Shown here in pieces: positions 50,633 to 62,134 of a DNA stretch of 64,000 nt. A model generated the notes under the pieces. It had not been told where the DNA came from and did not search any database. It saw only the letters and a program-made list of their open reading frames with translations. How positions within the stretch are numbered: position 1 is the stretch's first letter; the number at the start of each line of letters is the position of its first letter. The position numbers and the translations under genes were made by a program. Origin of the DNA: a bacterium (GTDB lineage: Bacteria; Electryoneota; RPQS01; DYHQ01). The stretch spans positions 150,748-214,747 of the forward strand of contig JAUXGA010000003.1 in the NCBI GenBank assembly GCA_030622545.1, read 5' to 3'.

Positions 50633-50854
50633 ATGATGTTGTCGCGCAAAGAAATCAAATTCATTTTCATCTTTTTGGTCGTCGGACTACTTGTATGGAG
50701 CTGCTCCGAGAAAGAAGATACAACACCTGTTGGTACTGAACCGATTGATGATCTGGCAGCCGACTGTATTGGCTGTCATACGAATGAAGACCTCTTGATA
50801 GAAACCGCACTTCCCGATGAAGAACCCCCGGGGGATCCATCGGGCGAAGGTTGA
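50633..50854 (+). CDS. Multihaem c-type cytochrome lipoprotein, 5' part before an in-frame TGA
   Basis: 73 residues: lipoprotein signal (FIFIFLVVGLLVWSCSEKED, lipobox VWSC), an acidic linker and one haem site CIGCH at about residue 44. It ends at TGA (50852-50854) inside a Gly-rich linker (DPSGEG-stop-GGSVPP). The same frame continues without a shift into the nine-haem segment that follows, so this is very likely the start of one gene now read as two. A codon GGA changed to TGA, read-through, or recoding would all fit. Alone it would be a tiny monohaem lipoprotein. Confidence 0.75.
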   Translation: MMLSRKEIKFIFIFLVVGLLVWSCSEKEDTTPVGTEPIDDLAADCIGCHTNEDLLIETALPDEEPPGDPSGEG

Positions 50855-50865
50855 GGTGGTTCGGT

Positions 50866-50880
50866 CCCTCCGTTGGAGGG
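50866..50880 (+). other. Hairpin 12 nt after the in-frame TGA
   Basis: CCCTCC (50866-50871), loop GTT, GGAGGG (50875-50880): a perfect 6-bp stem. The loop begins 17 nt after the TGA and starts with G. It may be a coincidence, a translational element, or a bacterial SECIS-like stem. Confidence 0.35.
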
Positions 50881-50896
50881 TTGGGAAAAGGTTTTA

Positions 50897-51979
50897 ATGA
50901 CAGGCAGCGGTTTGGAGGCGTATTTGGCTGGCCCACATGCGTTTGATTGCCGCTCCTGCCACAGTGGACAAGAAGGTATTCTGCTCAAAGAAGATGCACA
51001 CGTCGGTCTGGTCGCTGATCCGTCATGGGGCGATGACAATCAGTGCGCCTTATGTCATGGCAACATCGCGGAACATTTTGCCACCAGTTTGCATGCGACG
51101 CTCCGCGGTGAACATGCGCTCTTTGAGAAAAGGACCGGTTTTTCTCTTGAATCACATCCTGAAATTCACGAGGAATATGACAACGAATGCAATAAATGCC
51201 ATGCGACATGTGGGTCGTGCCATATCAGCCGTCCGGATGCTGTGGGTGGCGGATTTATTCAGAGCCATCGAATCAAACGTACGCCGGATTTGAAGAATCA
51301 GTGTACAGCGTGCCACGGCAGTCGCGTCGGAGATGAATATACGGGAGCGAATGAAGGATACAGTGCAGATGTTCATTACGTGCCTCATGCAATGAACTGC
51401 CGGGAGTGCCACACTGGCGCTGAAATGCACGGTGATGGAAATCTTTACGAACATCGCTATGAAGTCGAGAATGCTCCCGCCTGCCGCGATTGTCATGACA
51501 TCGGATCGCAGGACAATGTCTACCATGAACAGCATGGTGACAACCATCAATGTCAGGTCTGTCATTCGCAGGAGTATAAGAACTGCAATGCCTGCCATGT
51601 CGGCGGCGACGGACTTGCGGAACCTTCATGGCTAGCGTTCAAAATCGGACGCAATCCCCTTTCCGATAACCGACCTGCGGATTTTGTAGTTCTGAGGCAT
51701 ATTCCGATTGTGGAGGATACCTACAGCGATTGGGAAGGAACGATGACTCCGCTCTATGCAGAGGAACCGACGTGGAAATATGCGACGCCGCACAATATCA
51801 GGCGCTGGACAGCCCGCACGGACACCAGTGGAGGATTATCCTGCTCAGCCGTCTGCCATAACACTCCGGCAGATACATCCGGCTTCTTCCTGCGGCAAGT
51901 GGATTTAAATCTTCTTCCCGTCGCAGAACAGGAAGCGAATCAGCATCTGATTGTGCCGGATGGACCCCCTCCATGGTAA
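50897..51979 (+). CDS. Multihaem c-type cytochrome, 3' part after the in-frame TGA
   Basis: About 360 residues from the ATG at 50897 (AAAAGG 5 bases upstream), in the same frame as the 50633 gene; the frame is open from 50855. Nine CxxCH sites (CRSCH, CALCH, CNKCH, CGSCH, CTACH, CRECH, CRDCH, CQVCH, CNACH) and one CX3CH (CSAVCH). Many extra His residues could be distal ligands. On its own it has no signal peptide and could not be matured in the periplasm, so it needs the 5' part. Joined, the protein has 10 CxxCH sites plus the CX3CH. It probably carries electrons at the outer membrane. Confidence 0.8.
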   Translation: MTGSGLEAYLAGPHAFDCRSCHSGQEGILLKEDAHVGLVADPSWGDDNQCALCHGNIAEHFATSLHATLRGEHALFEKRTGFSLESHPEIHEEYDNECNKCHATCGSCHISRPDAVGGGFIQSHRIKRTPDLKNQCTACHGSRVGDEYTGANEGYSADVHYVPHAMNCRECHTGAEMHGDGNLYEHRYEVENAPACRDCHDIGSQDNVYHEQHGDNHQCQVCHSQEYKNCNACHVGGDGLAEPSWLAFKIGRNPLSDNRPADFVVLRHIPIVEDTYSDWEGTMTPLYAEEPTWKYATPHNIRRWTARTDTSGGLSCSAVCHNTPADTSGFFLRQVDLNLLPVAEQEANQHLIVPDGPPPW

Positions 51980-52035
51980 ACAGATTTATCGAAATTGAAA
52001 TAATTCCATAAATAATCTAACACAGGAGAAAAACC

Positions 52036-53016
52036 ATGAAATCACTTTTTCGCTTAACAGCTTTAGCTGTCCTCGTCTTAAGCTTAACCTTCTTTATTGG
52101 TTGTTCGAGTGATGACGACGATAATCCAATCACCCCCACAGCCAATATTTTTGCGGATGTTGCTCAGATCGGTGATGACTATCTGACAGCGGGGACGAAG
52201 AATATCGTAGCCGCTGATGTTTTCCCTGATTTGGGAACCGGCGATCTTTTTCTTATCGATTTCCGCAGTGCCACCGACTTCGAGAATTTAGGTCATATCG
52301 ATGGTGCTGTGAACTGGAGCATTGGAAGTCTGCCGGATAATGCTGATCAGATTCCCGCGGGTGCGAAAGTCATCTGCGTCTGCTACACCGGTCAAACGGC
52401 CAGCTTCGCATCCTGTTATCTGAATATGATGGGCTACGACGCTTACAATCTGAAGTGGGGTATGTGCGGCTGGACAAGCGATGTGGCTGTGAACCTGAAC
52501 AAGTGGGGTGGACTTGTTCCCGGAGGTCAGACGACTGAGACAGATGCTCATACTCTAACGACAGAGTATGATTTGCCGACGATTGAAGGCACCGACGCAG
52601 AAGACGAAGTTCATAATCGCTGCAATGACTTCTTTGATGCAGGCGTTACATATATCTTGGCAGCTGATCTCTATGCCAACCTTAATGACGGCGATACCGG
52701 CAATGATCCGTATATTGTAAATTATGGCTGGCCGCAGGCCAGTTACGACGCTGGGCATGTTCCAGGCTCCTATCTGTTCGGCGGCGGCACGCTCGGACCG
52801 GATGAGAATCTGAAGTATCTACCCACGGATCAGGATATTGTTGTCTGGTGCTACACCGGTCAGACATCGGCTCAGGTTTGCACCTACTTGAATATGCTCG
52901 GATACGATGCGTATTCGCTGAAGTTCGGGATGAATTCGATTGATCCCAGTCTGTGCGGAACATCCGTCTATTCTCCTCCCGGCACGGATTATCCTGTCGT
53001 TACTGGCCCGGCGTAA
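52036..53016 (+). CDS. Tandem rhodanese-domain lipoprotein
   Basis: 326 residues; AGGAG lies upstream of the ATG. Lipoprotein signal (LSLTFFIGCSSDDDD). Two rhodanese domains: the first with active-site loop VICVCYTGQTASFASCYLNM, the second with IVVWCYTGQTSAQVCTYLNM. Both keep the catalytic Cys (CYTGQT), which carries persulfide sulfur. The two halves resemble each other (MGYDAYNLKWGM / LGYDAYSLKFGM), so they arose by duplication. Lipid anchoring puts it in the periplasm or at the surface, beside multihaem cytochromes, suggesting sulfur handling coupled to electron transfer. Confidence 0.92.
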   Translation: MKSLFRLTALAVLVLSLTFFIGCSSDDDDNPITPTANIFADVAQIGDDYLTAGTKNIVAADVFPDLGTGDLFLIDFRSATDFENLGHIDGAVNWSIGSLPDNADQIPAGAKVICVCYTGQTASFASCYLNMMGYDAYNLKWGMCGWTSDVAVNLNKWGGLVPGGQTTETDAHTLTTEYDLPTIEGTDAEDEVHNRCNDFFDAGVTYILAADLYANLNDGDTGNDPYIVNYGWPQASYDAGHVPGSYLFGGGTLGPDENLKYLPTDQDIVVWCYTGQTSAQVCTYLNMLGYDAYSLKFGMNSIDPSLCGTSVYSPPGTDYPVVTGPA

Positions 53017-53065
53017 GCCTTAGGTATGCAACGATTTCCAATTCCTTTAACCCTTTAGAAATCGT

Positions 53066-53102
53066 GGGGCTTGGGTAACGCTTGCCCAAGCCCCCTTATT
53101 GT
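53066..53102 (+). terminator. Terminator hairpin after the rhodanese gene
   Basis: Perfect 10-bp stem GGGGCTTGGG (53066-53075) / CCCAAGCCCC (53085-53094), followed by a weak T-rich tail (TTATTGTT). It may only attenuate transcription into the beta-barrel gene. Confidence 0.7.
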
Positions 53103-53130
53103 TCAAAAACATCTCAAGAGAGACCTGCCT

Positions 53131-54375
53131 ATGATTACGGCCTCTTGGAAAACAGAATCGACTCGGCGATTCCCTTTGTTGCTTCTCCTTTTTCTGCTGT
53201 TTGGATTGTGTACTTCCGCTTCGGCAGCCGTTGTTTCAGGGCGAGCTTCTGTCTGGAGCTATGCGCGTGAAGATACGGTCAATCATGTCGTGGTGGTTCC
53301 GCAGCTTTCGGCGACGATCCATCAGCTTGGCAGGGAAGGCCTGAGTTTCCAGACGACGCTCCGCGGATTTTACGATTTTCGCGACGGTGAATCCAGTGAT
53401 GAACAGGTGCGCATTCAGAGAGCGGTGTTCATCTATGCTCCTCGAAAATCGCGCTGGGAAGTTCGCGCGGGACAGCAGTGGCTTACGGAGGGTGTCGGTC
53501 GCGGAAGCATCGCCGGGTTGTGGGCTCGCTATAAAGCAAGTTCTAAACTATCCCTGACAGCGTACGGTGGGCCGCGATTGTCGCGCTCGATTTCGCTGGT
53601 GACAGGAAACGAAGATAACGGGATTGCCGCCGGAGTTCACGCCCGAACGAAAATTGGGCGCCATCGTCTGGGACTATCGTACACCTATACCGGCAAAGAG
53701 GGCGATATTCTTTATCACGGTATCGGGGTGGATGGTGTCGGTAAATTCCATTCGAAGCTGAACCTGCGCGCCCGGCTCCACATGAATCTGGAGCAAAGCA
53801 CGATTGAGACGGCTCAACTTGTCGCCGCGTGGAAGGCTCATCAGAAAGTCGATGTGACGGCTGAACTGCGTCGCCAGACACCGCGAATTTTCGAGGATTC
53901 GTATTTCATTCGCTTCCTCGAATATGCTTCGACGGATTTCGTACGCGCTGCCATGCGATGGACATTCTACAAAACTCTCTACATGAAACCCGGCGCTTCC
54001 GTACTCTTCGCTGACGATGAACTGCTCTATAAGGTGCGGTTAGCTTTCGGTGTCCCCATTGTCGAGTTTGGTTTCACACACTGGCTGTCTGTTTCCGAAG
54101 GTGCGATGGACGGTTTTTATGGTCAGGCGCAGTATCGAATCGGACGATGCGGACAGGTGTTCGGCGGTTTCGATTTTTCGGAAGGTTCCAATTCCAACGT
54201 GCGCGAGGATGTCAACTCGCATGCGACGTATTTAGGAGCGCGCTACAATATCACGAACGCCATTAACGTTTCAGGTCGAGTGGAACACATTGAAGATTTT
54301 GAGCGCAGTGAAGATATCCGCGGATTGTTTTCCCTCTCCGCGCGGTTTTCGACTCTGCACGGGAGCGGACGATGA
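53131..54375 (+). CDS. Outer-membrane beta-barrel (porin-like) of a porin-cytochrome cluster
   Basis: 414 residues from the ATG at 53131; a longer frame would run through the terminator hairpin. Signal peptide (FPLLLLLFLLFGLCTSASAA), then amphipathic strands throughout with charged turns (VVSGRASVWSYARED, HRLGLSYTYTGKEGD, YGQAQYRIGRCGQVFGGFDF) and a C-terminal strand GLFSLSARFSTLHGSGR. This is the pattern of an outer membrane barrel of 16-20 strands. Its stop overlaps the 12-haem cytochrome start by 4 bp, so the two are translated together. In porin-cytochrome systems the barrel holds a periplasmic and an external cytochrome. Confidence 0.82.
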   Translation: MITASWKTESTRRFPLLLLLFLLFGLCTSASAAVVSGRASVWSYAREDTVNHVVVVPQLSATIHQLGREGLSFQTTLRGFYDFRDGESSDEQVRIQRAVFIYAPRKSRWEVRAGQQWLTEGVGRGSIAGLWARYKASSKLSLTAYGGPRLSRSISLVTGNEDNGIAAGVHARTKIGRHRLGLSYTYTGKEGDILYHGIGVDGVGKFHSKLNLRARLHMNLEQSTIETAQLVAAWKAHQKVDVTAELRRQTPRIFEDSYFIRFLEYASTDFVRAAMRWTFYKTLYMKPGASVLFADDELLYKVRLAFGVPIVEFGFTHWLSVSEGAMDGFYGQAQYRIGRCGQVFGGFDFSEGSNSNVREDVNSHATYLGARYNITNAINVSGRVEHIEDFERSEDIRGLFSLSARFSTLHGSGR

Positions 54376-55304
54376 GACGAAAATACACTTCTCCAATCAT
54401 CCGGCTCGCGCTGGGAATCTGCATCGCCGGAATCTTTCTGGTCGGGATGTTCGCCCAAGCGTCACGCTCCCAAGAGACGACATCGGCGGCCGCTCGCGGT
54501 CTAAACTTTCCACATGAATTTCATCGTGTGGACGTCGAGCTTGAGTGTGCGGCCTGTCATGCTGCCAAGGCGAGCACGACCGGCCGGGATGACCTGTTGC
54601 CCGGCCATGACCAGTGCAGCGACTGCCACGGAATGGATGAACCGGATGAGTGCTCGAGCTGTCACTTGTCTGACGAACCAGAACTCAGTCCGAGAATACA
54701 AAAGTTCTCTCCGAAGTTTAGTCATGAATATCATTCGGTGGAAGGAAAACTCGCCTGTAACGCTTGTCACACTGAGCTTGATGATTTTCTGCCGCCGGAG
54801 CAGGTGGGGCATCTGCCGGATATGGCGCAGTGCATGACTTGTCATGAACAAAGCCATGTTTCAAACGCCTGCGCGGAATGTCACCTGTCGACGGATGATT
54901 TGGAGCCCGCTGATCATAAACTGAATTGGATGAACCTACACGGCAGCATCGCTTCGGCGTCTCAGGATGAGTGTGCGCTTTGTCACAGCGTAGCGGAAGA
55001 TTGTCAGGCTTGCCATAACGGCGACGAAGTTTCCATGCCGCATCCCAACAACTATGTTTCTACGCATGGTTTTGACGCGCACCTTTCCGATATGACCTGT
55101 GGTGTTTGTCATGACCAGCGGGATTATTGTAATGAATGCCACCGTTCGCTGAATATTCTGCCCGCGGATCACTTCCGTGGGGGATGGGTTACCGCTTCGG
55201 GCGGTGTTCATAGTGAAGAGGCCAAGTTTGATCTGGAAAGTTGCATGTCCTGTCATGAAGCTCCGGAGCAAGAACCCGTTTGCGCTCTATGTCACGGGGA
55301 ATAA
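54372..55304 (+). CDS. Twelve-haem c-type cytochrome, probably periplasmic
   Basis: 310 residues. N-terminal signal sequence (LALGICIAGIFLVGMFAQAS) without lipobox. Twelve CxxCH sites: CAACH, CSDCH, CSSCH, CNACH, CMTCH, CAECH, CALCH, CQACH, CGVCH, CNECH, CMSCH, CALCH. Many separate His residues (HEFHR, HEYHS) could give bis-His ligation. The haem density, about one per 26 residues, is typical of electron wires. The 4-bp overlap with the barrel gene suggests it docks on the periplasmic face of the barrel. Confidence 0.93.
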   Translation: MRRKYTSPIIRLALGICIAGIFLVGMFAQASRSQETTSAAARGLNFPHEFHRVDVELECAACHAAKASTTGRDDLLPGHDQCSDCHGMDEPDECSSCHLSDEPELSPRIQKFSPKFSHEYHSVEGKLACNACHTELDDFLPPEQVGHLPDMAQCMTCHEQSHVSNACAECHLSTDDLEPADHKLNWMNLHGSIASASQDECALCHSVAEDCQACHNGDEVSMPHPNNYVSTHGFDAHLSDMTCGVCHDQRDYCNECHRSLNILPADHFRGGWVTASGGVHSEEAKFDLESCMSCHEAPEQEPVCALCHGE

Positions 55305-55309
55305 GCATC

Positions 55310-56230
55310 ATGTTTGAAAAGAATAGATTTCTAATTTTACTCTTTGGGATACTCATCGCGGCGATAGCGCTGACATCGTGCAGTGAATACCGGACTCCCA
55401 ATGGTTATCAAGCTCATCCTGATGGCTGGCTGGCTCCGTCCAGCGATGCTTTTCACGGGCAGGGAGCGCTGAGCACTCATGGGCAGGGGTGTGCTTCGTG
55501 TCACGGTGAGGATTATCAGGGCGGCGAAGAAGGACAGAGCTGTTACGATTGCCATGTCTATCCGCATCCATCTGTTACCGCCGGGCAAGCGAGTGCTCAT
55601 CAGGCGATAATAGCTTCTCACGATTGGGACCTGAGCGCATGCAGCGGCTGTCATGGAGCCGATTACACCGGCGGACGGACAGGCGTTAGCTGCAAAGAGT
55701 GCCATATCGGGCCGAATGGTCCCGAGGATTGCACAACCTGTCACTGGCTGCCGCCGGTCACCGATGCCGGTCTGCCCTATGGGATGACTTCCGGAGCGGC
55801 GGGAGCGCATTCGGCGCATATGTCGATAGGCTACGCCTGCACCGAATGCCATCTTGAGGTGACTGATATTTCTCATGCGGATGCTTTGCCGGCTGAAGTC
55901 GATTTCTCCGAAGCGCTTATCGCGGATCTTTCACCTCATGAACCGATTTACCTGAGCAGCGGCCCCGCCGAAAACGGCAACGGTTCCTGCGGTTCACTAT
56001 ATTGCCATTCCGATGCTCGCGGCGGCTCACCGAATTGGCCGGTAAGCTGGCACGGCGACCCAATGGCTTGCGGCGATTGCCACAGCATTCCTCCTCCCGC
56101 GCCGCCGGTGATGGGCGCTCAGTGTCACGTCTGCCACGGGAATGTAAATCCGAATTCAAACTACGACTATCCCGATTCCATTCGGTTTCTCCAGCCCGAA
56201 TTGCATGTCAACGGAGAGGTTGACTTCTAA
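55310..56230 (+). CDS. Multihaem cytochrome lipoprotein with CX4CH motif
   Basis: 306 residues from the ATG at 55310, 5 bp after the previous stop. Lipoprotein signal (LILLFGILIAAIALTSC; lipobox ALTSC). Eight CxxCH sites (CASCH, CYDCH, CSGCH, CKECH, CTTCH, CTECH, CGDCH, CHVCH) and one CX4CH (CGSLYCH, codons at 55988-56008). The CX4CH plus following CxxCH is the arrangement known from Geobacter outer-surface cytochromes. It is likely anchored in the outer membrane, facing out or docking on the barrel, as the terminal electron donor. Confidence 0.92.
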   Translation: MFEKNRFLILLFGILIAAIALTSCSEYRTPNGYQAHPDGWLAPSSDAFHGQGALSTHGQGCASCHGEDYQGGEEGQSCYDCHVYPHPSVTAGQASAHQAIIASHDWDLSACSGCHGADYTGGRTGVSCKECHIGPNGPEDCTTCHWLPPVTDAGLPYGMTSGAAGAHSAHMSIGYACTECHLEVTDISHADALPAEVDFSEALIADLSPHEPIYLSSGPAENGNGSCGSLYCHSDARGGSPNWPVSWHGDPMACGDCHSIPPPAPPVMGAQCHVCHGNVNPNSNYDYPDSIRFLQPELHVNGEVDF

Positions 56231-56254: not shown

Positions 56255-56295
56255 AAAAAAACCCTTCGAGACGTGCTAGTCTCGAAGGGTTTTTG
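56255..56295 (+). terminator. Bidirectional terminator between cytochrome cluster and giant repeat gene
   Basis: 12-bp stem ACCCTTCGAGAC (56261-56272) / GTCTCGAAGGGT (56279-56290), with A tract on the left and T tract on the right. It serves the plus-strand cluster and the minus-strand gene ending at 56327. Confidence 0.9.
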
Positions 56296-56326: not shown

Positions 56327-59300
56327 CTACGGTGTCGCTGAATAAACCCGATAGTATTTCTTAATGCCCAGAGTGACCACGCCGTCGTCCGTCCAAGTTG
56401 TGGTTGGCGCCACTACAGTTGCTTCGAACGTTTCAAACGTTCTGTCGTGTAATGTTAATGTGTCAGTGTAACTGTAGACGTTGTACTGCGGAGCTCCCGT
56501 TGAACCCCAGCGGAGAATGACATCATCTCCGGAACGTATTGCCGTCAGATCGAGAACCGGCTCCGGACTGATGACCTGCAGAGAACATGCGCCGCAGGCT
56601 GTGCCGTAGAGCGACGTCGAGATGTAGTAGGTGCCCAGTGGCAGATCAACCAGCGTGATGATTTCATCATCTCCGCTGTAGGTGTTATCCGCCGAACCCA
56701 CACAGGTGGATGTGTCACCGCAAACCGTCGTAACAATGATCTGATTGTCACCGTCACCTGAAGCGATGAATGTCCAGCTCCGAACTTCCGTCGGCGTGAA
56801 TTCGTAGATAACATCGTTGCCCGACGTGAAGCACGTTGGATCACCGCAAGAATCCGCGTACACGCACGGTATTGTATCCGTCGCGCAGCATGAATTCTCC
56901 CAGTGCGTGTAGTTCAGTCCCGGAGGGATGACAATCGGATTAGCGCAGTAATCGACAATATCACAGCACTCGGTCGCTATCGTGTAGGTCGCGTAGCCGA
57001 CATCGGTTTGATAGATATCGATATACAGATTCCACGGCGTCGCGCCTTCGTTGGTAAGTATCCAGCCGCTTGTGTTGCCGCTGCCGAGGGTACCGCATGT
57101 ATCATCGAGGAGATTATTTGCGACATAAGCCGTCGGAGATTGATCACACAACTCACCATCGTAGACAGTCAGAAGCATGATGGTCATCGCCGGAACTACG
57201 ATAGGATAAACATCGTGAGTGGTGTCCGGACAGATTTTACCGCAAACCGTATCGAAGCACGCAATCGTGTGCGGATCCACTTCAGTGGGACAAACATCAT
57301 TGGGTTCGGTTTCTTCAGGCGTACAGCAATTTGTCCAGAGCGAACACGGTATGCACCACGTGATGTCAAGCTGGTATGGGTGACCAACTGTGGACGAGCT
57401 GTACTCTTCGACATCCAAGTATACAATCTGTCCCTGTGAAAGCTCGACACAGAAAATCTCTGAGAGGGCACTGACGGGGGATTCACAACCGTCGTCATCG
57501 TAACCGAGTTCAATCCCACGACAGCAGCCGGTTTGCAGATACAACTTGCTGTCGAATGTGGAATCCGGATCAGTACCGCAAAGGCTGAAGGTGTACTCAC
57601 CATCCTCGGTGATCTCAATTTCATACATGTGATCCTCGCCAGTGCCGTTCGCGCAGTCATCGCCCGCACCTTCAAGAGTTGGTGCATTAAAAGTATAGCC
57701 CATGTTATCTATCTGAATCACATAATCCACGGGACATGGCGGGCATGCACCACAACCGACAGTCAATATATATGGACCGGTGCCGGTGTCATAGGCTTCT
57801 TGAACCATGATAAAGTAGGTTCCCGGATCCAGACACACCTCAATGCGGCTGTCATAGCTGGTAGGTCCGGGAGGTCCGTAGTTGTTGTCGTTGAAGGCCA
57901 TCTGACTCACACAATCACTCGCGTACAGATAAACCTCCGGATTGAGACCCAATTCATACGGCCACATACCCGGTGTGTCGTCGGCGAAGACATCAACGGT
58001 GCACATTTGAGCCGAGTCGGTTATGGCAAGCTCATACCAATCGTGATCACCAACAATGTCAATTCTACCGCAGAGCGTATCTTCGCAAGCTACGGCTTGC
58101 GCCGTCGTGCAGGTGTCATTGGGCTCAACGTCAAGACTCGGGTACGGACACGGCGGACAGCAACTGATATCAAGCTGGTATTGATGACTGACGGTTGATG
58201 AATAGGCCTCTTCAACACTTAGGTATACCGTATCGTCCTGTGAAAGCGAGACACATCGAATCTCGGAAAGACCAGAGTATACACCGCAACCGTCGTCATC
58301 GTAAGCCAATTCAGTTCCACGACAGCACGAGGTCTGTAGATATAGTTCGCTGTCGAACGAGGAATCCACATCGGTGCTGCAAAGCGAGAAGTTATAAAGA
58401 GCATCTTCGAGTATTGCTATCTCATACACATGATCCTCACCAGCGGTGTTCGGGCAATCGTCGCCTGCACCTTCCAGAGTTGGCGCAACGAAGCTGTAGC
58501 CCTGGCAATCCACCTGAATAGCGTAATCCACCGGGCAGACACATTGACTGCAAGTAACAGCCAAGACATAAGGGCCGGTGTTGGTATCGTAACAGTGCTG
58601 GACCATGATATAGTAGGTTCCCGGATCCAGACACCATTCCACAATGCGGCTGTCAAGGCCTTCACCGCCGTCATCATTGCTGGCGATTACGGTTGCGCAA
58701 TCGCTTGCATACAGCCAAACTTCCGGATCAAGACCAAGTCCGTACGGCCACATATAGGGCGTATCATCGGCGAAGACATCAATGGTGCATGTAACCGCTG
58801 AATCGGCTATGACAAGCTCATACCAGTCGTTATCGCCTACGATATCGATTTCGCCGCACAGCGTATCGCCGCAAGCGACGGGTTGTGACGTCGTACAGTC
58901 ATCGTTGGGCTCGATGTCACGGTCAGCGTATGGACAATCTGGCAACACGTCGCAGGTCAGCCAAGCCACATATTCCGAGGTGTCTCCACAAAGAACACCT
59001 TCGAATTCCTCAGGCGCGATCAGGATCCAGTAGGTACCTGCAGCAACGACGTCGGAGATACAAACGGTATCACACTTATTACCGGAATTAGACACGAGCG
59101 TTACAGCGTCATCACAGGAATCCGGCGATGTACCGGCCTGAACAATCCAAAGGGTAAAATCGAATTCCGCAACGGCGCACCAATAGAGCCATGTCCAATC
59201 ATCTGTAAGCGTGATTTCGTACCAGTCTGTGTCGCGGTAATTCAACGTATCGACTCCATCGACAAACTCGAACGTCCCGCTCTTACCGCAGACAGTGTCG

Positions 59301-62134
59301 TCGCAGGCGATGGATTGGAAGACATAAGGCGTGGAATTACATCCGCCGTTGTACTGGTCGTCGTAGTTAAAGCCGCAATCCGGTTCGCCTTCATAGAAAC
59401 AGGCATCGAGAGTGCCTGCACACGGACACGTAATCACGCATATATCTGGACATGCGCCACAGGTAATCGCTAAAACATACGGGCCGGTGTTGGTATCGCT
59501 ATAATGCTGAACCATAATATAGTAGGTTCCCGGTTCCAGACATTCTATCCCAAGCCGGCTGTCAAGTCCTTCGCCGCCGTCATCATCGTTGCCAAGCTCG
59601 GTTACGCAGTCGCTCGCATACAGCCAAACCTCCGGATCAAGACCTGTTCCGTATGGCCACATACCGGGTGTATCATCAGCGAAGACGTCAATGGTACATG
59701 CGACGGCTGTATCGGGTATAACAAGTTCATACCAGTCGTTATCACCCACAGGTTCGATCTCACCGCATAGGGTATCTCCACACAAGACACCCTCTGCCGT
59801 CGTACAGTCATCGTTGGGTTCAGTGTCACGATTCTCGTACGGGCAGGGAATACATCCGGTGGTTATAGTTAAATCGAAATCCGGAATGCAGGGAGTTGTT
59901 GTATAGGAATCTATGATGATGTAGTACGTGCCCGCTGGGAGAACAACATTATTCATCCCGTGCGGTGCGGCATTATAATTGGTGGAGGTGGCAATACAGG
60001 TCCCTGGATTCGGTGGACATGTACTGTCAATAAGTATGCCTGAATAGGTTGTAGTTTTCGGATCAAGTAGAATATTGACACACGTATCCTGCGTAACGGT
60101 GATTTCGTAGAGAATATCTTCTCCGGCGTCGTAAGTGCCAAGGCATGTCGCGTCGAAATCATTGCCCAAACCGCAGTTCGTCTGGCTCAAATCACTGTAA
60201 GGCAATGCCGCCGGAAGCGTGACCGTTACATCTGGTGGAATGCACGGATTTACCCACGCGCTGATGGCCAGGTCAAATGAAGGAATGCAATCGGGAGTTG
60301 GGTATGTATCGATCATGATGTAATAGGTACCCGGTGCGAGGATCACATAGTCCAATCCATGTGGGGAAGCACCGGAATTGGTGGAAAAAGCCATACACGG
60401 GTCACCCGGAGGACAAACATCGTCGATTAAGATACCCGTCCAAGTGGTGGTGCCCGGATCAAGGTCGATGTTAACGGTACACTGTGCTGTGACGGTGACT
60501 TCATAGAGAATATCTTCGCCGCCATCATAGCCGTCAAGACAGGTCATGTCGAAGTCATCCTCCAGGCCACAGTTCGTTTGATCTATATCACTGTAGGGCA
60601 GCGCTGCAGGCAGAGTAACCGATACATCCGGAACACACGGATCGACAAATGTGCACGTGGTGATGGTCAGGTCAAATGAAGGAACACAATCAGGTGTCGG
60701 ATTGGTATCGATCATGATATAATAGGTACCCGGCGCGAGGATCATACAGTCCAGCCCATGCGGGGCAGCACTGTAATTGGTAGAAAAAGCCATGCACGGA
60801 TCCCCCGGAGGGCAAACATCGTCGATTAAGATACCGGTATAGGTTGTGGTGCCCGGATCAAGGTTGATCTCAACGGTACACTGCTCCGTGACAGTGACTT
60901 CATAAAGAATGTCTTCACCGTCGTCGTAAGTGCCAAGGCATGTCGCGCTGAAGTCGTCCTCCAACCCACAATTCGTCTGGGCTGCGTCGGTGTAGGGCAG
61001 CGCCGCTGGCAAAGTAACCGATACATCCGGAATACACGGATCGACGTATGTGCATGTGTTAATGGTCAGGTCAAACGCAGGAATGCAATCGGGAGTCGAC
61101 CAGGTATCAATCATGATGTAGTAGGTGCCCGGATCAAGAATCATGCAGTCCAATCCGTGCGCGCCGCCGCTGTAGCCGCGGGTTGAAAAAGCCATGCACG
61201 GATCAGCCGGCGGACACTCATCGTCGATACAGATACCGGTATAGGTGGTGGTGCCCGGATCAAGCCCGATTTCTACCGTACACGTTGCCGTAACAGTCAA
61301 CTGATAAATAATGTCTTCTCCACTGTCGTAGTAGTCGAGGCAGGTATCCTCATAATCGTCGAGTCGGCCGCAATTCGTCTGAGCCGCGTCGGTGTAAGGT
61401 AACGCCGCTGGCAGCGTAACCACGATGGGATCCGTACAATCATCGCCGGTCGCATCAAGGTGACCTCGTGTCCGCGGTGTCGTGCCGCCGCGCAATGCGT
61501 TCAATTCATTCCAGAGGTCACTGTAGTCCAAGCCCTGCTCCTTGAGTTCATCAATTCTCGGACCGATGGCTTCGATACGCTCCCTCTTCGCATGTTCATC
61601 TCCTGCGGCTATCCGCTGTGCAAGTTCATTATCTATAGCCATTTTCTGCGCAAGCTCTTCCTCCATAGTGGGCTGATGTGCACGTTGTTCTTCTATGGCA
61701 ATCGTCCGCGCATGTTCAGCAGCAGCCAGTATCTTTTCGCTCTCTTTTTGGGCTAACTTGGCCGCCTCTTTTATAGCAGGTATAGCAGGCTTGGCAACGC
61801 GGGCCGGGCCTAAGGCCGATGTTGAGGGCCAGTCGATGACAGGTTCCGGAATTTTGGCCGGTTCCTCCTCAAACTTGCCTGCTCTTTTCTCCACAGGAGC
61901 TTCTTTTACTGCAGGTGCTTCCTTCTCCACGAGAGCTTTTTTCTCTGCAGGAGTTGTCTTAACGATAGTGGCTTCTTCCGGTTGCGCGGGCTGCGCGATA
62001 GGTTGTGCCGTTCGTAGCCCCAACCGGATTAGCGTGCTGTCGACATCTTCTTTCACATTGTCGGCCAGCAGCACGTAACAGCCGAGCAAGATGATGGCTA
62101 TGAACAAGCCCGTAAACAAAAACCCCTTTTTCAT
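56327..62134 (-). CDS. Giant secreted repeat protein (tandem Cys-rich and PPC-like modules)
   Basis: 1935 residues; GAGGTGAAG lies upstream of the ATG. The signal sequence (MKKGFLFTGLFIAIILLGCY) resembles that of the 582-residue protein at 2.3-4.0 kb. Residues about 50-215 form a charged Glu/Lys/Ala-rich stalk. Residues about 231-765 hold four tandem modules of about 134 residues, each with VTLPAALPY, GEDILYEVTVT, DPGTTTYTGI and PGTYYIMIDT. Then come three PPC-like modules (DNDWYELVI, DDGGEGLDSR, PGTYYIMVQ) mixed with other Cys-rich modules, and a fibronectin-like end. There is no NPFNP sorting domain. Probably a cell-surface or matrix protein; LLGC could also be a lipobox. Confidence 0.85.
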   Translation of the reverse strand: MKKGFLFTGLFIAIILLGCYVLLADNVKEDVDSTLIRLGLRTAQPIAQPAQPEEATIVKTTPAEKKALVEKEAPAVKEAPVEKRAGKFEEEPAKIPEPVIDWPSTSALGPARVAKPAIPAIKEAAKLAQKESEKILAAAEHARTIAIEEQRAHQPTMEEELAQKMAIDNELAQRIAAGDEHAKRERIEAIGPRIDELKEQGLDYSDLWNELNALRGGTTPRTRGHLDATGDDCTDPIVVTLPAALPYTDAAQTNCGRLDDYEDTCLDYYDSGEDIIYQLTVTATCTVEIGLDPGTTTYTGICIDDECPPADPCMAFSTRGYSGGAHGLDCMILDPGTYYIMIDTWSTPDCIPAFDLTINTCTYVDPCIPDVSVTLPAALPYTDAAQTNCGLEDDFSATCLGTYDDGEDILYEVTVTEQCTVEINLDPGTTTYTGILIDDVCPPGDPCMAFSTNYSAAPHGLDCMILAPGTYYIMIDTNPTPDCVPSFDLTITTCTFVDPCVPDVSVTLPAALPYSDIDQTNCGLEDDFDMTCLDGYDGGEDILYEVTVTAQCTVNIDLDPGTTTWTGILIDDVCPPGDPCMAFSTNSGASPHGLDYVILAPGTYYIMIDTYPTPDCIPSFDLAISAWVNPCIPPDVTVTLPAALPYSDLSQTNCGLGNDFDATCLGTYDAGEDILYEITVTQDTCVNILLDPKTTTYSGILIDSTCPPNPGTCIATSTNYNAAPHGMNNVVLPAGTYYIIIDSYTTTPCIPDFDLTITTGCIPCPYENRDTEPNDDCTTAEGVLCGDTLCGEIEPVGDNDWYELVIPDTAVACTIDVFADDTPGMWPYGTGLDPEVWLYASDCVTELGNDDDGGEGLDSRLGIECLEPGTYYIMVQHYSDTNTGPYVLAITCGACPDICVITCPCAGTLDACFYEGEPDCGFNYDDQYNGGCNSTPYVFQSIACDDTVCGKSGTFEFVDGVDTLNYRDTDWYEITLTDDWTWLYWCAVAEFDFTLWIVQAGTSPDSCDDAVTLVSNSGNKCDTVCISDVVAAGTYWILIAPEEFEGVLCGDTSEYVAWLTCDVLPDCPYADRDIEPNDDCTTSQPVACGDTLCGEIDIVGDNDWYELVIADSAVTCTIDVFADDTPYMWPYGLGLDPEVWLYASDCATVIASNDDGGEGLDSRIVEWCLDPGTYYIMVQHCYDTNTGPYVLAVTCSQCVCPVDYAIQVDCQGYSFVAPTLEGAGDDCPNTAGEDHVYEIAILEDALYNFSLCSTDVDSSFDSELYLQTSCCRGTELAYDDDGCGVYSGLSEIRCVSLSQDDTVYLSVEEAYSSTVSHQYQLDISCCPPCPYPSLDVEPNDTCTTAQAVACEDTLCGRIDIVGDHDWYELAITDSAQMCTVDVFADDTPGMWPYELGLNPEVYLYASDCVSQMAFNDNNYGPPGPTSYDSRIEVCLDPGTYFIMVQEAYDTGTGPYILTVGCGACPPCPVDYVIQIDNMGYTFNAPTLEGAGDDCANGTGEDHMYEIEITEDGEYTFSLCGTDPDSTFDSKLYLQTGCCRGIELGYDDDGCESPVSALSEIFCVELSQGQIVYLDVEEYSSSTVGHPYQLDITWCIPCSLWTNCCTPEETEPNDVCPTEVDPHTIACFDTVCGKICPDTTHDVYPIVVPAMTIMLLTVYDGELCDQSPTAYVANNLLDDTCGTLGSGNTSGWILTNEGATPWNLYIDIYQTDVGYATYTIATECCDIVDYCANPIVIPPGLNYTHWENSCCATDTIPCVYADSCGDPTCFTSGNDVIYEFTPTEVRSWTFIASGDGDNQIIVTTVCGDTSTCVGSADNTYSGDDEIITLVDLPLGTYYISTSLYGTACGACSLQVISPEPVLDLTAIRSGDDVILRWGSTGAPQYNVYSYTDTLTLHDRTFETFEATVVAPTTTWTDDGVVTLGIKKYYRVYSATP
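59840..61444 (-). repeat. Four tandem ~400-bp coding repeats in the giant protein gene
   Basis: Four units of about 134 codons, marked by recurring VTLPAALPY near 61415, 61010, 60610 and 60210. They are similar enough at DNA level to recombine, so copy number may vary. They encode the first module block of the protein. Confidence 0.8.

Follow-up and report, generated by a model that had tools for sequence, protein, structure and literature searches.

Why does a multihaem cytochrome gene contain an internal TGA, and why does it stand beside a rhodanese lipoprotein gene, followed by the genes of a candidate electron conduit across the outer membrane? The question is raised by five genes at 50636-56230 of a 64,000-nucleotide stretch (the window; positions 150,748 to 214,747 of contig JAUXGA010000003.1, assembly GCA_030622545.1) of an Electryoneota bacterium, whose genome is 2.66 Mb and 96% complete. 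All five genes lie on the + strand and were present as described in an earlier reading made from the sequence alone (the sequence-only reading). They were treated as module A (50636-53016, the cytochrome and rhodanese lipoproteins) and module B (53131-56230, a barrel, a 12-haem cytochrome and a multihaem lipoprotein). Our preferred answer, with a probability of roughly 0.55, is that the cluster joins two conserved modules, in which the rhodanese would give sulfane sulfur to the selenol of a selenocysteine (Sec) cytochrome and haem electrons arriving via the outer membrane would reduce it.

The in-frame TGA as a selenocysteine codon

The first gene had been described as a decahaem lipoprotein split by TGA. 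The lipoprotein with ten CxxCH motifs was confirmed, with the lipid cysteine at C23 and an additional conserved CX3CH at residue 403; an alternative start is the ATG at 50633. The split was not, as the TGA, the sole interruption of the frame, is a Sec codon by the evidence below. When the half downstream of the TGA was used as the query in the phylum, nine other genomes were found, giving ten copies with the window. TGA occupied the same site (GEG-U-GG) in all ten orthologues, and the frame opened right after it in each. The ten read-through proteins share one layout: a lipoprotein with a first CxxCH, GEG-U-GG or a near variant, and nine more CxxCH, with the CX3CH in nearly all. The Sec would be located in a flexible, glycine-rich segment between the first and second haems.

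For a wider sample, GTDB species genomes were scanned, and the best 80 of 387 encoding stretches, from about ten phyla, were used as loci (numbered L below; genomes are numbered G, G000 being the window genome). The codon at the Sec site was TGA in 64 loci, Cys (TGC/TGT) in 13, Arg in two and Trp in one. The Arg loci, L088 and L119, are near-identical, and the Trp locus, L152, lies at a contig end. A tree built from the downstream portion of the cytochrome shows two origins of Cys, one within an Ignavibacteria/Bacteroidetes clade and the other in the pair L092/L098. The family thus shows the pattern by which bacterial selenoproteins are recognized, a UGA conserved in homologues and replaced by Cys in others.

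Mechanical open reading frame callers cut the cytochrome gene at the TGA, which could reflect a sequencing error or a nonsense mutation, or else mark the end of a short lipoprotein with a second protein downstream. These explanations are scarcely credible against a TGA conserved in about ten phyla, Cys at the same place, a hairpin resembling a selenocysteine insertion sequence (SECIS) and a full set of Sec machinery. A separate downstream protein would also be without a signal peptide, though haem attachment requires export. A pseudogene or a sequencing error was ruled out by the conservation across phyla. Elsewhere in the window genome there is a second cytochrome gene (L072, G000:C16:47057-47554) with eight CxxCH and no UGA, whose product shares 33% identity with a part of the Sec-cytochrome.

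The SECIS hairpin and the Sec machinery

Hairpins whose loop begins 16-22 nt past the UGA were measured in 68 UGA genes and compared with 300 synonymous shuffles. The mean stem was 6.9 bp, against 3.38 ± 0.15 bp in the shuffles (largest shuffle mean 3.78), and stems of at least 5 bp were found in 84% of the UGA genes, against 17% expected. Two registers were seen, with loops GUU/GGU and GGA; in 96%, G occurred in the first two positions of the loop. The pairs 15-23, 13-25 and 12-26 covaried, with compensatory changes on both sides, indicating a bacterial SECIS (bSECIS) hairpin just 3′ of the UGA. Cys genes showed a smaller excess (4.5 versus 2.9 bp in shuffles), as expected of a relic of Sec ancestry. 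On the other hand, the folding energy of the whole region gave a weak signal against synonymous shuffles and was by itself not significant (mean z -0.78 for UGA and -0.28 for Cys genes, p 0.16). The position-specific stem test is the informative one, and total folding energy is no strong discriminator.

The window genome encodes tRNA-Sec, detected by both Rfam and ARAGORN, as well as SelA (527 bits), SelB (376 bits) and SelD (365 bits). Its SelD (L179:2950-4060, G000:C12) is a selenoprotein too, with an in-frame UGA in CAG-U. Among the sampled genomes, SelB scored above cut-off in 25 of 27 with TGA and in 1 of 13 with Cys (Fisher p = 2e-7); the two TGA genomes without it may be incomplete assemblies. 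The conserved TGA, the Cys exchange, the SECIS hairpin and the Sec machinery together show that the label of a split or broken gene was wrong. Judged by sequence comparison, the gene is intact and its internal stop is a conserved Sec codon, and the window cytochrome is almost certainly a selenoprotein.

No curated family model matched the Sec-cytochrome over its full length, and the family is absent from NCBIfam 20; it therefore looks like an undescribed family of multihaem selenoproteins. The searchable text of a 2026 inventory of prokaryotic selenoproteins names ExtKL, GSU2204 and TIGR04315 as cytochrome or CXXCH-type entries and does not name this family (PMC13188914), although a preprint or a set of automated predictions might include it. 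A widespread family of multihaem selenoproteins was apparently overlooked because gene callers cut its genes at the UGA. Ignavibacteria, among them Stygiobacter electus strain 09-Me, have Cys orthologues with which one could work without Sec insertion.

Pairing of the Sec-cytochrome with a rhodanese lipoprotein

We were particularly interested in the second gene, read earlier as a lipoprotein with two intact rhodanese domains. This was borne out by two stretches assigned to the rhodanese superfamily (PF00581), each with its active-site Cys in CYTGQT. A rhodanese gene adjoins the Sec-cytochrome in all ten phylum genomes, and a same-strand rhodanese lies no more than 335 bp away in 76 of the 80 loci (64 downstream, 12 upstream). 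The partner is nearly always a lipoprotein carrying at least two rhodanese domains; active-site loops were matched twice in 61 of the 76 partners, and three or four times in some. An Ardenticatenales contig (L146:3-2039) carries an apparent fusion, with rhodanese, CxxCH, UGA and cytochrome in one frame. The tie between rhodanese and cytochrome proposed in the sequence-only reading therefore holds, more strongly than was supposed there, and the notion that the two genes never occur together in related genomes fails.

The four loci without a rhodanese are L116 and L152, both cut off by a contig edge, and L088 and L119, whose flanks are complete. The latter two are the same loci that have Arg at the Sec site, and loss of the rhodanese along with loss of Sec/Cys is what a coupled function predicts. 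Downstream of these two Arg copies (L088:4898-6214, L119:8470-9786), a 9-haem gene stands in place of the rhodanese neighbour. Since the conduit lies beside the pair in only 20 of the 80 loci, the strict partner of the rhodanese is, by gene neighbourhood, the Sec-cytochrome and not the conduit. The conservation of the pair indicates that module A is very probably one functional unit.

Many of the rhodanese lipoproteins start C-S-D-D-D-D from the lipid cysteine. SDDDD is a surface export signal in Bacteroides fragilis (PMC5080379), and by analogy the rhodanese may be displayed on the surface in Electryoneota.

The porin-cytochrome module and its linkage to the pair

The 414-residue outer-membrane barrel proposed earlier was modelled with AlphaFold2, which gave 22 strands at a mean predicted local distance difference test score (pLDDT) of 90. 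The fold matches of the model in the PDB were porins and ushers, and with 22 strands the predicted barrel would be large enough to hold a cytochrome. A sequence search of the PDB returned noise, and no sequence match to known conduit barrels rose above noise. The 12-haem gene begins at 54372, within the last 4 bp of the barrel gene (end 54375), and its haem motifs are far beyond chance, as 5000 shuffles of the protein yielded at most two CxxCH. The last of the five genes, too, is as first read, a cytochrome lipoprotein with eight CxxCH plus a CX4CH. The neighbouring genes expected for inner and outer multihaem cytochromes are conserved: wherever the contigs of related genomes extend far enough, the barrel gene is followed by the 12-haem gene, and the third-position lipoprotein differs between genomes. 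Gene order thus agrees with the layout of a porin-cytochrome conduit that had been suggested; by this comparison barrel, 12-haem cytochrome and multihaem lipoprotein are a conserved porin-cytochrome module, by which electrons are predicted to cross the membrane.

It could be that A and B adjoin by chance, with B as an all-purpose conduit to Fe(III)/Mn(IV) and A working alone. A hairpin lies between them, the two are on different contigs in the phylum genomes G030, G033 and G017, and B occurs in several genomes of the order where A was not found. Against this, the barrel stands beside the Sec pair in 20 of the 80 loci, in several phyla and in both orders (module A comes first in 17, including the two Arg copies that lack a rhodanese, and module B in three), and 27 more loci are cut within 3.5 kb. 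Within the phylum, A and B occur together in G020 and G021. Chance adjacency is therefore unlikely, without being far-fetched. In two further conduit clusters of the phylum (L067:5362-19400 and L068:1168-17198), large cytochromes with 17 and 19 haems stand beside the Sec pair.

Proposed mechanism, direction and substrate

A sulfur role fits the cluster. Module A would be a pair of surface or outer-membrane lipoproteins. Thiosulfate, polysulfide or elemental sulfur would supply sulfane sulfur, which the rhodanese cysteines would bind as a persulfide and pass on to the cytochrome's selenol; electrons from the haem chain of the Sec-cytochrome would then release the sulfur as sulfide. The electrons would come from the quinone pool, with module B as the route to the pair in bacteria with an outer membrane. 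While the Sec codon with its SECIS, the Sec/Cys exchange, the rhodanese pairing, the conduit module and its recurrent linkage were read from comparison of sequences, we infer the transfer of sulfur between proteins, the direction of electron flow, the substrate and the surface location. For sulfane-sulfur chemistry at the selenol the odds are about even.

If such chemistry holds, reduction is somewhat favoured over oxidation. In several Chloroflexi and KSB1 loci, a twin-arginine (Tat) signal 4Fe-4S protein (Fer4_11) and NrfD or cytochrome b561 are encoded beside the pair. Such a module is quinone-linked and feeds reductases in Psr-type systems. The Sec-cytochrome may accordingly draw on the quinone pool, with module B extending the chain across the outer membrane; this is the main, though not a decisive, ground for preferring reduction. 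The pair could instead run oxidatively: sulfide or sulfane sulfur would reduce the Sec-cytochrome, and the electrons would leave through module B for metals, electrodes or partners. The same parts work either way, no dsrA was found in the window genome, sulfide oxidation genes are reported for other members of the phylum (PMC10439189), and NrfD modules can also run in reverse. Given the NrfD and b561 neighbours, we consider the oxidative direction improbable.

Several observations weigh against sulfane-sulfur reduction by the joined modules. Rhodanese domains are able to bind other things, e.g. selenium and arsenate. Rhodanese relatives stand alone, without the cytochrome, in three phylum genomes (G010, G026 and G001), indicating that dependence is mainly one way. 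L088 and L119 are a single lineage, so that their joint loss counts as one evolutionary event. The model of the Sec-cytochrome found no real fold match in the PDB (best 1sp3, E 0.48, TM-score 0.27). Most A loci show no B within the stretch covered, which, together with the hairpin between the modules, means that A need not act through B. Finally, the nearest known layout, Geobacter ext, has been linked to selenite and tellurite reduction (PMC5877670).

The last point raises the possibility that the cluster reduces selenite or tellurite extracytoplasmically, as proposed for Geobacter extHIJKLMNOPQS, with the rhodanese binding selenium as perselenide. The shared parts of extHIJKL, namely rhodanese lipoprotein, porin and Sec-cytochrome (PMC5877670, PMC6148476), speak for it, as do weak, local hits to the ExtM model among family members (46 of 68). 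However, curated models for ExtKL, ExtM and ExtH gave no orthology, and selenium is seldom abundant enough to account for a spread over about ten phyla; this substrate appears improbable as well. Within the preferred sulfane-sulfur reading, a narrower form is tentative, with the balance tilted against it: the pair would be a molybdenum-free respiratory sulfane-sulfur reductase whose selenol takes sulfur directly from the rhodanese, the conduit supplying electrons where an outer membrane exists. If true, the pair does extracytoplasmically what PsrA or PhsA does with molybdenum. The pairing offers a testable idea of how sulfur compounds may be coupled to surface haem chains in uncultured phyla (KSB1, Electryoneota, Krumholzibacteriota, Calditrichota and Chloroflexi).

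Features and neighbourhood of the cluster

The features are collected in the table. The hairpin between the rhodanese and barrel genes may, as a weak indication, divide genes 1-2 and genes 3-5 into two transcripts; scans for terminator-like hairpins yield about equally many sites in shuffled sequence. In 22 of the 80 loci (L082:8009-9337 and 21 others) the pair has a PAS/sigma-54 activator gene nearby, and a sigma-54 promoter upstream of the cytochrome was suspected for this reason. None was found in the window or in the 22 activator-bearing loci; 4 of the 54 other loci had one (0.2% expected). Convergent with the cluster, a gene at 56327-62134 on the - strand encodes a secreted protein of 1935 amino acids (aa) with long internal repeats (DCTDPIVVTLPAALPYTDAAQTNCG-like units).

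Table. Position, strand and basis of the features of the cluster (window coordinates).
Feature	Position	Strand	Basis or remark
Sec-containing multihaem cytochrome lipoprotein, 447 aa via TGA readthrough, 10 CxxCH + CX3CH	50636..51979	+	
In-frame UGA, selenocysteine codon by comparison, residue 73, GEG-U-GG	50852..50854	+	TGA conserved in orthologues
bSECIS-like apical hairpin CCCUCC-GUU-GGAGGG	50866..50880	+	Loop begins 18 nt past UGA
Tandem-rhodanese lipoprotein, 326 aa, lipobox GC-SSDDDD	52036..53016	+	PF00581, two stretches, 4e-20
Rhodanese active-site loop 1, CYTGQT	52381..52398	+	
Rhodanese active-site loop 2, CYTGQT	52849..52866	+	
13-bp GC-rich hairpin in rhodanese/barrel gap, possible terminator or attenuator	53066..53094	+	Pattern scan
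22-strand outer-membrane beta-barrel (predicted), 414 aa, signal peptide	53131..54375	+	AlphaFold2 mean pLDDT 90.3; PDB fold matches
12-haem c-type cytochrome, probable conduit subunit, 4-bp overlap with barrel gene	54372..55304	+	12 CxxCH; adjoins barrel in relatives
Multihaem lipoprotein, 8 CxxCH + CX4CH, probable outer-surface cytochrome	55310..56230	+	
Terminator-like hairpin between cluster and convergent gene (56327-62134)	56257..56294		

Comparison with known systems

The sequence-only reading had called the rhodanese gene inside a porin-cytochrome cluster unusual, but it is not unprecedented. Geobacter sulfurreducens extHIJKL(MNOPQS) already combines a rhodanese lipoprotein, a porin, multihaem cytochromes and the UGA/Sec cytochrome ExtKL in one cluster (PMC6148476, PMC5877670), and extHIJKL has been linked with the reduction of selenite and tellurite and, in part, of metals (PMC5877670, PMC6148476). 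However, ExtKL is described as a 5-haem protein whereas the window Sec protein has 10 CxxCH plus CX3CH, the window cluster is without the ExtO/ExtP (Rieske, cytochrome b) genes, and, unlike Geobacter ext, the window-type pair is nearly invariable and occurs in about ten phyla. Compared via the NCBIfam models, ExtKL (NF040886) went unmatched in the window genome and no match in 39 phylum genomes exceeded the cut-off, the two individually listed ExtM matches scored 33-34 bits against a cut-off of 800, and the ExtH match had E 0.045. Since no curated ext model was matched above its cut-off, the window cluster is either analogous to ext in function or related to it very distantly, with proteins that are not orthologues.

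Membership of TIGR04315 (octahaem tetrathionate reductase), for which Sec forms are reported (PMC13188914), was rejected by the curated model. The window protein was unmatched at E 1, and only 2 of 68 family members matched (best 1e-6).

Module B shares a conserved gene order with OmbB-OmaB-OmcB and MtrABC: a barrel, immediately followed by a multihaem partner, and a multihaem lipoprotein. Third-position lipoproteins also vary in Geobacter conduits (PMC6148476). The window barrel differs in having no sequence match to known conduit barrels above noise and 22 predicted strands in 414 aa.

The Otr/SirA-like octahaem cytochromes of Dethiobacter likewise stand beside rhodanese-domain proteins, and sulfur reduction has been proposed for them (PMC10376724), but the fold match of the Sec-cytochrome to 1sp3 is weak (E 0.48). 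In Desulfurivibrio, the polysulfide reductase (Psr) operon includes a secreted lipoprotein with three rhodanese domains (PMC12142623). As in module A, a multi-rhodanese lipoprotein is thus placed beside a respiratory sulfur reductase or its candidate counterpart, and NrfD/4Fe-4S genes lie near some members of the Sec-cytochrome family. The catalytic partner in Desulfurivibrio is the molybdenum enzyme PsrA, whereas in the window it would be a Sec-containing multihaem cytochrome.

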